Source of the DNA: Buttiauxella agrestis
GTDB taxonomy: Bacteria > Pseudomonadota > Gammaproteobacteria > Enterobacterales > Enterobacteriaceae
Direction of reading: 5' to 3'
NCBI RefSeq assembly: GCF_900446255.1
Contig: NZ_UIGI01000001.1
Span: 1,576,763 to 1,640,762 of the forward strand
DNA: 64,000 bases
In this document: piece by piece, positions 22,807-63,473 of the stretch
Layout: every line of letters begins with the position of its first letter
How positions within the stretch are numbered: position 1 is the first letter of the stretch
The notes under the pieces: model-generated
Told to the model about the DNA's origin: nothing
The model's input: only the letters and a program-made list of their open reading frames with translations
Databases searched by the model: none
Translations under genes and position numbers: made by a program

Positions 22807-22882
22807 CCTCTGGCAGCACAGGCGGTTTACAGTCACTGTCGCGCGCATTATTCTTGTGAACGCAAAAGTATGATTTATCAAT

Positions 22883-22961
22883 GACTCGGGGTGCCCTTCT
22901 TTGTGAAGGCTGAGAAATACCCGTACCACCTGATCTGGATAATGCCAGCGTAGGGAAGTCA
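22883..22961 (+). promoter_or_regulatory. TPP (THI-element) riboswitch for thiMD
   Basis: All conserved THI-box parts are visible: ACTCGGGGTGCCC, GGCTGAGAAATACCCG, ACCTGATCTGGATAATGCCAGCGTAGGGAAGT. Downstream, CCTGCC (22966-22971) can pair with GGCAGG (22994-22999), which includes the thiM ribosome site AGGAG (22997-23001). Ligand binding would thus hide the ribosome site, as in the E. coli thiM switch. Confidence 0.96.
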
Positions 22962-23009
22962 GATGCCTGCCCGGTCATCTCTTCTTCACGCCAGGCAGGA
23001 GCTTACAAG

Positions 23010-37300: not shown

Positions 37301-38200
37301 CTAACCTAACAGCGGGCAGTTTGGCGGCAGGCGGCAACTGAGCGCATTGGGATGGATATCAATGCGGAATTTCTGGCTGGTCAGCGGCTCGCCATCAAGG
37401 TTAAAAGTAATGTCGTGCGGGGCGGTTATCTCGAACCAGGATGAACGCCCATCAATAATATTGGGGTTGTCGTCTGGTTGCGTCAGCGTTTTAAAAATTG
37501 CCGGCAGCAACTCTTCGCCAGTAAAAATACGCAACTCTAATAAACCATCATTAATCAATGCCTGCGGGCAAAGCTCCTGCCCACCGCCCGCCTGGCGGCC
37601 ATTGCCGATACCAATCACCAGCGCGTCGCCTTGCCATTCAAAATTTTCACCCCGGATTTCGCAGCGATCCGGCTTGAGTGTGTCGAGGCGAATCAGTCCG
37701 TGAACAAAATAGGCAATTCCACCCAATGCAGCTTTCAGTTTTTCCGGTGTTTCGGTCGTAATACGCGTCCCGAAACCGCCCGTCGCCATATTGATAAAGA
37801 ACGCGGATTCGTTGACCTGCACCAAATCGATATCCACTCCTTTACCGACAATCGCTAATTGCAAAGCTTTGTCGAGATCCTGAGGAATGCCGACGCTGGT
37901 CGCAAAATCGTTGGCGGTGCCTAGCGGGAGAATCCCTAACACCGGGCGGCGTTCAGGAGCAAGTTGTGCCAGCGCGGTCGCCACTTCGTTTATCGTGCCG
38001 TCTCCGCCGCCCGCAATGACGGTATCGACACCCAAACTGGATGCTTCTTTAACGTAACGAATCGCGTCGCCTTGTTCCCAGGTAACGCGGATGTGTAACG
38101 TGTAACCCTCGTCACGCATGACTTTTACGGCGCTACGCAAGATGTCGTTGTTGGCACCTTTGCCGTTCAGAATGACGAGTGATACGGGAAACTGCTCCAT
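37301..38200 (-). CDS. yegS: Lipid kinase YegS
   Basis: 299 residues, the E. coli length. Diacylglycerol-kinase-like catalytic fold: [20 protein letters not shown] (GGDGT nucleotide motif), [18 protein letters not shown], and the C-terminal [17 protein letters not shown] with the DGE motif. E. coli YegS phosphorylates phosphatidylglycerol in vitro. GAGG ribosome site 6 bp before ATG 38200. Its promoter must fall in the 90 bp behind the cyaR terminator. Confidence 0.96.
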
Positions 38201-38289: not shown

Positions 38290-38500
38290 AAAAAAGAAGG
38301 CCTGCGGAAGGGAGATTCCACAGGCCAATGAGGTGGTTCTTGGTACATATCCGTCATACTTCAAATTGTAGATGCGTTGGCTTTCCTCGTTCACCCCAGT
38401 CACTTACTTGAGTAAGCTCCTGGGGATTCACTGCGTCGCCGCCTTTCTACAATTCGAATTATTAGGATATAGCTAGCATTTATGGGTTATGTTTTTCAGC
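38290..38500 (-). ncRNA. cyaR: CyaR (RyeE) small RNA gene interrupted by an ERIC element
   Basis: The 5' module (38500 down to 38472) reads GCTGAAAAACATAACCCATA then AATGCTAGC, matching the start of E. coli CyaR as I remember it. The 3' module (38347 down to 38290) reads TGTACCAAGAACCACCTCAT and then an intrinsic terminator: GGCCTGTGGA...TCCGCAGGCC followed by TTCTTTTTT. In E. coli these two modules are contiguous in an 87-nt sRNA between yegQ and yegS. Here about 124 bp of ERIC sequence lies between them, so the transcript would be 211 nt; 211 minus 124 is 87. CyaR is a cAMP-CRP-activated, Hfq-dependent repressor of ompX, nadE, luxS and others. The pairing segment is ACCACCTCAT instead of the recalled ACCACCTCCT. 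Whether the RNA is functional is not known. Confidence 0.85.
38347..38470. repeat. ERIC element inside cyaR
   Basis: Inverted ends ATATCC (38347-38352) and GGATAT (38465-38470), with arms TTCAAATTGTAGA and TCTACAATTCGAA. The centre holds the canonical ERIC core around ACTTACTTGAGTAAGCTCCTGG, the site of the classical ERIC primers. About 124 bp long. On the minus strand it falls between the 5' and 3' parts of cyaR. Confidence 0.95.
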
Positions 38501-38506
38501 CCGGCG

Positions 38507-38549
38507 ATAATAACCGCAACAAGCGAAGCGGTATGTGATCGGTTTCTAA
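38507..38549 (-). promoter_or_regulatory. cyaR promoter with CRP site at -41.5
   Basis: Taking +1 at 38500, a -10 TATTAT lies at 38507-38512. On the plus strand TGTGA (38534-38538), N6, TCTAA (38544-38549) is a CRP site with one perfect half, centred at 38541.5. That is exactly -41.5, the class II activator position, and it fits the known CRP control of cyaR. Confidence 0.75.
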
Positions 38550-38584: not shown

Positions 38585-39946
38585 CTAGTTAGCATGCGGA
38601 TCGCGTGAGGTCTGACCGGCTAAATTGCGCATCAGCAGCGCATAATCCAGCGAGACATCTTCCGGCACAGGCATCCATACGGTGTGACCGTCGCCCGGTG
38701 CAACGTCAATCGGCTGCGCCTTGGTGTTTTCCAGCACTTCAAGCGTGAAAGTCACGTTACCTTGCGGCGTCATCATCTCCAGGCTGTCACCCAACAAGAA
38801 TTTGTTTTTCACTTTTACCGCTGCCAGGTCGCCACGGCGTTCACCGGTAAATTCGCCAACAAACTGCTGAGTTTCCGAAACGGAGTGACCGTAATCGTAA
38901 TTCTGATAAGAATCATGATTATGGCGACGCAAGAAACCTTCGGTGTATCCGCGGTGCGCGAGGCCTTCGAGCGTGGTTAAAAGGGTAGGGTCGAACGGTT
39001 TGCCTGCGGCGGCATCGTCAATCGCGCGGCGATAGACCTGAGCGGTACGCGCACAGTAATAGTAAGACTTGGTGCGACCTTCGATTTTCAGCGAGTGGAC
39101 GCCCATTTTGGTCAGGCGCTCAACGTGTTCAATGGCACGCAAATCTTTGGAGTTCATGATGTAGGTGCCGTGTTCGTCTTCGAACGCCGTCATGTATTCG
39201 CCAGGACGCTTGGCTTCTTCCAGCATAAACACCTGGTCAGTGGGTGCGCCTGCGCCCAAAGTTGGTTCAATGTTTTGCACCGGAATGGGCTCATGAAGAT
39301 GCACGATATTACCGACATCATCTTCTTTGCCTTCTTCAACTTTGTATTCCCAACGGCAGGCGTTGGTGCAGGTGCCCTGGTTCGGGTCACGCTTGTTGAT
39401 GTAGCCAGAAAGCAGGCAGCGGCCAGAATAAGCCATGCACAATGCGCCGTGCACGAAGATTTCCAGTTCCATGTCCGGTACTTGCTCACGGACTTCAGCA
39501 ATCTCTTCCAGAGACAACTCGCGGGACAAAATCACGCGCGTCAGCCCCATTTGTTTCCAGAACTTCACCGTCGCCCAGTTCACGGCGTTGGCCTGTACAG
39601 ACAGGTGAACGTCCATTTCCGGGAACGCTTCGCGGACCATCATGATAAGGCCTGGATCGGACATGATCAGCGCATCCGGTCCCATATCAATAACCGGCTT
39701 CAGGTCGCGGATAAAGGTTTTTAGCTTGGCGTTATGCGGAGCAATGTTCACCACCACGTAGAATTTTTTACCCAGCTCATGGGCTTCATTGATGCCGAGC
39801 TGGAGATTCTCGTGGTTGAATTCGTTATTGCGCACGCGCAGGCTGTAACGCGGCTGGCCCGCGTAAACCGCATCGGCACCATAGGCAAAAGCGTAACGCA
39901 TATTTTTCAGCGTTCCGGCTGGCGAAAGGAGTTCTGGTTTAAACAT
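38585..39946 (-). CDS. trhP: tRNA hydroxylation protein TrhP (YegQ), U32 peptidase-like family
   Basis: 453 residues, identical in length to E. coli YegQ/TrhP. Starts MFKPELLSPAGTLKNMRYAFAYGADAVYAGQ. The U32 signature is EIFVHGALCMAYSGRCLLSGY, with further conserved cysteines in GTCTNACRW and YYYCARTAQ that suggest a metal or iron-sulfur site. Known role: prephenate-dependent synthesis of 5-hydroxyuridine at the wobble position of some tRNAs. GAGAA ribosome site. It sits upstream of cyaR on the same strand, as in E. coli; yegP, its E. coli neighbour, is not seen. Confidence 0.96.
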   Translation of the reverse strand: MFKPELLSPAGTLKNMRYAFAYGADAVYAGQPRYSLRVRNNEFNHENLQLGINEAHELGKKFYVVVNIAPHNAKLKTFIRDLKPVIDMGPDALIMSDPGLIMMVREAFPEMDVHLSVQANAVNWATVKFWKQMGLTRVILSRELSLEEIAEVREQVPDMELEIFVHGALCMAYSGRCLLSGYINKRDPNQGTCTNACRWEYKVEEGKEDDVGNIVHLHEPIPVQNIEPTLGAGAPTDQVFMLEEAKRPGEYMTAFEDEHGTYIMNSKDLRAIEHVERLTKMGVHSLKIEGRTKSYYYCARTAQVYRRAIDDAAAGKPFDPTLLTTLEGLAHRGYTEGFLRRHNHDSYQNYDYGHSVSETQQFVGEFTGERRGDLAAVKVKNKFLLGDSLEMMTPQGNVTFTLEVLENTKAQPIDVAPGDGHTVWMPVPEDVSLDYALLMRNLAGQTSRDPHAN

Positions 39947-63435: not shown

Positions 63436-63473
63436 CAGTAGGTTGGTGACTGTAAGCCAGGGGCGGTAGCATG
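63436..63473 (+). promoter_or_regulatory. JUMPstart / ops element (RfaH recruitment)
   Basis: CAGTAGGTTGGTGACTGTAA, GCCAGG and the ops core GGCGGTAGCATG (63462-63473), the RfaH loading site that prevents premature termination in long polysaccharide operons. It is in the wza leader, as in E. coli. Confidence 0.9.

Follow-up and report, generated by a model that had tools for sequence, protein, structure and literature searches.

An ERIC element within the small RNA gene cyaR of Buttiauxella, and the probable persistence of the gene as an enlarged RNA

Hfq-dependent small RNAs (sRNAs) are compact molecules, which an insertion exceeding their own length would be expected to destroy. A stretch of 64,000 nucleotides from Buttiauxella agrestis (contig NZ_UIGI01000001.1, hereafter the window) carries the sRNA gene cyaR with an ERIC element inside it, and the question that this locus raises is whether the gene has been broken or continues to work as a larger RNA. 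An earlier note on this DNA had described the split gene and left open whether it represents an expansion, a processed RNA or a broken regulator; of these, the comparison with relatives reported here favours a maintained cyaR gene.

Both strands of the locus were read. The gene lies on the minus strand between yegQ (trhP) and yegS (Table 1), and measures 211 nt when counted from GCTGAAAAAC through the last base of the T-run. Subtraction of the 124-nt insert leaves 87 nt, as had been calculated in the earlier note, and this is the length of the uninterrupted cyaR in another Buttiauxella genome, G302. Counted from position 38500, the predicted RNA start, which we take from homology to E. coli CyaR, the −10 hexamer and the CRP half-site are present and intact where they had been claimed to be. 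A generic promoter consensus scan reported no sigma-70 pair at the cyaR promoter and is therefore blind to it, so that the lack of a reported promoter inside the ERIC says little. The stretch past the cyaR terminator is strongly variable among Buttiauxella species, and yegS starts at most 300 nt past the terminator in only the window, G298, G299, G300, G301 and G303 (n = 13). Elsewhere in the window lie a TPP riboswitch (22877-22973, plus strand, 74.4 bits) and a JUMPstart element (63436-63473, plus strand, 45.3 bits).

Table 1. Features of the cyaR locus, in positions of the window.
Feature	Position	Strand	Basis or remark
CRP site TTAGA-N6-TCACA (predicted)	38534..38549	-	centre −41.5 relative to the predicted start; TTAGA and TCACA identical in 13/13 Buttiauxella
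CRP half-site TCACA	38538-38534	-	read from the sequence
−10 hexamer TATTAT	38507..38512	-	read from the sequence; identical in 13/13
CyaR 5′ module, 29 nt	38472..38500	-	RF00112, 23.1 bits; first 23 nt identical in 13/13
ERIC insert, 124 bp with one 2-bp target copy counted in	38348..38471	-	dispersed-repeat family, length, tree
Left copy of the 2-bp target, TA	38470..38471	-	TG in G298
Right copy of the 2-bp target, TG in the window	38346..38347	-	TA in the G001 remnant
CyaR 3′ module, 58 nt	38290..38347	-	RF00112, 58.8 bits, gathering score 47
Seed GAACCACCTC	38330..38339	-	identical in 13/13; complementary to the ompX ribosome-binding site of relatives
Terminator stem-loop, 11 pairs	38299..38326	-	one pair G-C, A-U or C-G among ERIC-bearing species
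T-rich tail TTCTTTTTT	38290..38298	-	terminator scan and sequence
yegQ / trhP, upstream neighbour	38585..39946	-	NF011996, 856 bits, cut-off 534
yegS lipid kinase, downstream neighbour	37301..38200	-	TIGR03702, 456 bits, cut-off 387

By its Rfam score the locus is a CyaR gene, in a variant and not the canonical uninterrupted form. The CyaR family (RF00112) matches the 3′ half at 38294-38369 of the minus strand (58.8 bits against a gathering score of 47, E = 2e-10), which is the sole CyaR match above the gathering score in a scan of the whole window, and it aligns model positions 1-37 below threshold over the 5′ module (38456-38502, minus strand, 23.1 bits, E = 0.14). The Rfam coordinates alone hide the interruption, because the best alignment takes ERIC bases as the 5′ part, and covariance searches can thus mis-bound sRNA genes with such inserts. 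With the CyaR (RyeE) of E. coli, Salmonella and Yersinia the locus has in common the synteny with yegQ, the CRP half-site and −10 of a predicted CRP-dependent promoter layout, the 5′ module, the seed and the intrinsic terminator. It departs from them in that 124 nt of ERIC part the 5′ hairpin from the seed, which gives a length of about 211 nt against 87; the canonical form is absent from the window, where 124 bp separate modules that are contiguous in 8 of the 13 Buttiauxella compared. Set side by side, the window modules depart by eye at a single position from the uninterrupted cyaR of G020 and likewise at one from that of G297; these two genes score 88.7 and 88.1 bits with RF00112, and such scores so close to the joined modules give no ground to doubt the assignment. 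Each of the 12 other Buttiauxella genomes holds exactly one CyaR match over the cut-off, and no second, intact copy was found in any of these 12 or in the 64,000 nt of the window. The identity of the gene, its coordinates and its ERIC-split modules, all put forward in the earlier note, are thereby confirmed by the sequence, the RF00112 matches and the dispersed-repeat matches, and its anatomy suggests that the locus should work like CyaR.

As an ERIC, the insert is ordinary. Dispersed repeats that match it occur in all 12 other Buttiauxella genomes, with at least 9 to at least 44 matches per genome, and its ends, TATATCC...GGATATG, are terminal inverted repeats that enclose a predicted long self-complementary hairpin. 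In sequence, length, terminal inverted repeats, long hairpin and dispersed copies it is the same as the enterobacterial MITE known as ERIC, IRU or RU-1, from whose other copies it differs by its position inside an sRNA gene. Insertion of an ERIC is expected to duplicate a 2-bp TA target. The right flank of the window insert, TG, departs from this expectation, and the left and right target copies read TA/TG in the window, G296 and G299, TA/TA in G001 and TG/TG in G298. The Vibrio antisense RNA V_AS5 (RF02818) aligns with the ERIC at 38350-38472 of the minus strand over all 129 model positions, at 29.6 bits against a gathering score of 96, and this family may be derived from ERIC-like repeats. 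In an ERIC of G296 (L194 / L055) the left arm of the apical hairpin has been rewritten so that it complements the right arm perfectly, CAGTCACTTA...TAAGTGACTG, in the manner of a template switch. A survey of 31 other Buttiauxella ERIC loci, which represent 30 distinct places (L233 repeats L214), found none inside an Rfam RNA over its gathering score, a blunt measure because an RNA split by ERIC can drop below that score. Two of the surveyed elements abut an Rfam RNA: in L204 (G299, 1408-1612) the ERIC starts directly past the T-run of the sRNA gene sroB, and in L217 (G251, 1427-1616) it starts two bases from a tRNA gene.

The same locus was compared in 13 Buttiauxella, that is the window and 12 other genomes, the nearest of which, G001, has 25% of sampled 31-letter words in common with the window. 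Inspection of close relatives, a check proposed in the earlier note, revealed the insertion in several species. A full ERIC is present at the same site and in the same orientation in 4 of the 13 (window, G296, G298 and G299), G001 carries a shortened remnant, and in the other eight cyaR is uninterrupted, with one extra base in G251. A further uninterrupted record, L155, titled uncultured Buttiauxella, groups with the outgroup Dryocola and was left out of the counts. Outside the genus, uninterrupted cyaR is the rule among the loci inspected for inserts (30 returned by the family scan, and further fetched ones). Among the matches listed, 117 stretches carry the exact 20-nt start; a script placed the seed at the normal distance in 112 of them, two more have a changed seed at that distance on inspection, and the remaining three, all Buttiauxella by title (L076, L096, L172), contain an insert. 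L172 (G296) and L076 (G001) are both titled Buttiauxella agrestis ATCC 33320 and show a yegQ identity of only 87.5-91.3%, and one of the two records (marked UNVERIFIED_ORG) is probably mislabelled. In L140, a contig filed as Chryseobacterium sp. 18061, the yegQ-cyaR region is enterobacterial, so that contamination or a wrong label is likely.

Where the ERIC sits within the RNA was addressed by fold prediction with and without the insert. In all four full-ERIC RNAs the predicted 5′ hairpin, closed by positions 1-4 with 26-29, ends exactly at base 29, and the insert starts at base 30; the ERIC forms its own hairpin and the terminator is unchanged. The element is thus predicted to occupy the linker between two domains and to leave both as before, which supports the proposal of the earlier note that an ERIC RNA folding on itself could do so. 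The expected number of pairs between insert and modules is 1.64, 1.21, 1.71 and 1.80 (window, G298, G299 and G296, respectively), compared to means of 14-16 for 300 shuffled inserts each, of which 1, 0, 2 and 1 were as low. Seed openness in the presence of the insert is predicted to be at most 0.02 off its value in the joined modules. As open a seed is also obtained with 12, 42, 33 and 41 of 300 shuffled inserts (same order), so openness of the seed does not set ERIC apart and makes a weaker argument than the lack of cross-pairing. The shuffles of the insert show that ERIC is a strong hairpin, and do not show selection. The full-length fold has a z of −6.05, and the G001 remnant keeps a closed hairpin of −8.5 kcal/mol, a value equalled or bettered by 5 of 2000 mononucleotide shuffles.

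Constraint on the modules and promoter can be read from the relatives. No base differs among the 13 Buttiauxella in the first 23 nt of the gene, in the seed, in the −10 or in the CRP half-site. Comparison of the 3′ modules of the window and of G298 over 57 positions shows four differences, one beside the seed and three in the terminator stem, and all three stem changes keep pairs; the terminator changes of G296 keep pairing as well, and a single stem pair occurs as G-C, A-U or C-G, depending on the ERIC-bearing species. When the 57 pairs of the window fold are followed through the four full-ERIC species, 224 of 228 cells hold standard pairs, the broken ones being three ERIC pairs in G298 and one 5′ hairpin pair in G296. 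Changes in the 5′ module fall within its last six bases in G299 and G296, and bases 24-26 are changed only in these ERIC bearers, whereas the uninterrupted species vary only at base 29, the last (in G166 and G297); this hints at relaxed constraint at the module's end in G299 and G296, and the constraint on the module could be one on DNA near the start site. Conservation of the ERIC itself was dropped as a sign of function, two other orthologous ERICs of distant species being about as conserved (91% and 94%, with flanks of 86-93%). Covariation within the ERIC is weak, with one pair changed on both sides besides the three broken in G298, and the 11 of 500 structure shuffles obtained on four rows are not a probability.

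The A-rich 5′ part of CyaR binds the distal face of Hfq. The RNA belongs to the class II Hfq sRNAs, according to an excerpt of PMC8294330. An excerpt of PMC11795201 describes control of CyaR by CRP, a seed that is conserved across enterobacteria next to a variable 5′ region, and, in Y. pseudotuberculosis, pairing with the Shine-Dalgarno sequence of ompX that impedes ribosome binding. In all 12 other Buttiauxella genomes the start of ompX keeps TGAGGTGG, of which 8 bases pair with CCACCTCA of most cyaR alleles and 7 with CCACCTCC of G302 and G251; in G298 and G001, 10 bases in a row are complementary between ompX and CyaR. This complementarity is also constrained by the ribosome-binding site and is equally present in the uninterrupted species. 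The second target considered, nadE, was set aside, its start codon being credibly placed only in G298, G299, G300 and G301 of 12 loci.

The origin of the insert was traced with a tree of 40 ERIC sequences, of which 37 are distinct: 4 come from cyaR, and the 36 others either were nearest among the matches listed or were contained in fetched regions. In it the copies from cyaR group as a single clade (support 96/84, present in 97% of 200 bootstrap trees, with bootstrapping not fully settled), which suggests that a single insertion at cyaR is likely. Identity of the window ERIC to the other three cyaR copies is 92-98%, and to the remaining ERICs compared among the matches listed it reaches at most 88%; the cyaR ERICs are 86-98% identical between species. 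The G296 copy is 85.8% identical to that of G298 and 86.6% to L195, an element outside cyaR, so that its placement rests on the tree. On a species tree from 6.6 kb of baeSR, yegQ and an xdh-like gene (the window and 11 genomes, without G303, in which the xdh-like gene has no match) the ERIC bearers fall in four places, which forces at least four changes, and the four full-ERIC lineages differ from one another at 33-43% of yegQ four-fold sites. An arrangement with the ERIC bearers as a single clade was rejected (p-AU of 1.3e-40 for baeSR, 2.9e-8 for yegQ, 6.5e-4 for yegS, 1.3e-7 for xdh and 1e-58 for the concatenation). In the 130 nt upstream of cyaR, G299, with ERIC, and G297, without it, are sisters (98/97) against the species tree, and recombination therefore happens at the locus. 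Within the cyaR clade of ERICs the G296 copy lies outside the other three, as vertical descent would have it, but the grouping of G299 with G298 (98/80) instead of with the window does not agree with such descent. With its bearers in four places, the insert may either have been present in the genus ancestor and cleanly lost several times, or be an allele spread by recombination. Because recombination happens at the locus, part of the conservation of the modules may reflect allele exchange and not long maintenance, and the lack of ERIC in 8 of 13 alleles could be a sign that the insert does mild harm and is replaced.

Taken with the anatomy, the common insert that looks to be of single origin, the kept modules and promoter and the complementarity to ompX kept in the relatives, we consider a tolerated expansion a reasonably likely explanation. 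One ERIC would have entered the linker between the 5′ hairpin and the half that holds seed and terminator, in a Buttiauxella ancestor or a donor, and a single RNA of about 211 nt would still be made from the CRP promoter of the gene. Its ERIC portion, for which a self-contained fold is predicted, would form an inert third domain, while the 5′ module, the seed and the terminator bound by Hfq would keep their structure and the RNA would still pair with the ompX ribosome-binding site. That some related species have the insert in common, with both halves kept, argues that cyaR probably still works as an enlarged RNA and is not broken; transcription, stability, Hfq binding, any nuclease cutting and target repression in Buttiauxella are inferred.

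Loss of function is, in our view, unlikely. Here cyaR would be inactivated, with modules that persist owing to a recent insertion or to the continued exchange of clean alleles, an account that agrees with the patchy spread, the 8 of 13 genomes that lack the insert and the recombination at the locus. That cyaR can be damaged is seen in G168, from another genus of the family, where a transposase-like stretch, recognized by eye, abuts the 3′ half and no 5′ half adjoins it (L035, around 2515), a contrasting and probably damaging change. The insert of Buttiauxella, however, is common to four lineages as divergent as their yegQ genes, the seed, −10 and CRP half-site have stayed unchanged, the terminator has changed in ways that keep pairing, and the predicted fold of both modules is unaffected.

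An enlarged transcript might also serve as a precursor. Cutting of the 211-nt RNA in the ERIC hairpin by RNase III, or at the right end of the ERIC by RNase E, would release an active form of about 58 nt, and both seed and terminator do lie in the 3′ half. Excerpts report that Hfq-bound E. coli CyaR is cut by RNase E in vitro (PMC8294330) and, second-hand, that an RNase E site is unmasked within the ERIC 3′ repeat in mRNAs of Yersinia (PMC10969869, PMC2229807). The Yersinia site, as the excerpt of PMC2229807 has it, is exposed by ribosomes, though, and an untranslated sRNA is without these; moreover, the ERIC bearers keep a 5′ module that a 3′ RNA alone would not need, even if this module overlaps the start site. 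We judge such processing to be improbable too.

Still more doubtful is a functional third domain, in which the ERIC hairpin would alter the processing of CyaR or its presentation on Hfq and the allele would move between species by recombination; if true, the ERIC-bearing Buttiauxella would have a differently regulated CyaR, for instance one with a nuclease cut in the hairpin that releases a seed RNA. Independent ERIC insertions at one hot spot in several species would accommodate the four or more changes on the species tree, the varying target dinucleotides and the closeness of the G296 copy to one ERIC outside cyaR, but the clustering of the four cyaR ERICs, the greater identity of the window copy to the other three than to any other ERIC compared among the matches listed, and the identical orientation in all four render them very improbable.

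Among the titles and starts of abstracts listed from the open-licence PMC literature, none described an ERIC within CyaR or any other Hfq sRNA, in agreement with the earlier note, whose author knew of no such CyaR. Repeats and MITEs inside RNA genes have precedents. In Rickettsia, palindromic elements reside in the genes for tmRNA and M1 RNA (Ogata 2002, cited through an excerpt of PMC2229807); there, likewise, a palindromic MITE within a conserved RNA gene is thought to be tolerated, although, unlike the cyaR ERIC, those cases concern housekeeping RNAs, another element and a distant host. The Coxiella sRNAs CbsR3, CbsR13 and CbsR16 derive from QMITE elements, according to an excerpt of PMC5896051. 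As here, a MITE is joined to an sRNA promoter, and the Coxiella RNAs are transcribed, as the ERIC-bearing cyaR probably is; they arose from the MITE, whereas in Buttiauxella an existing sRNA would have been expanded.

Within one genus, then, Buttiauxella offers a natural series of uninterrupted cyaR, cyaR with a full ERIC and cyaR with a shrunken one. This series lets one test which of the linkers in CyaR is free and how independent the 5′ module and the seed are of each other, and it also bears on how a mobile repeat enlarges a regulatory RNA without destroying it.
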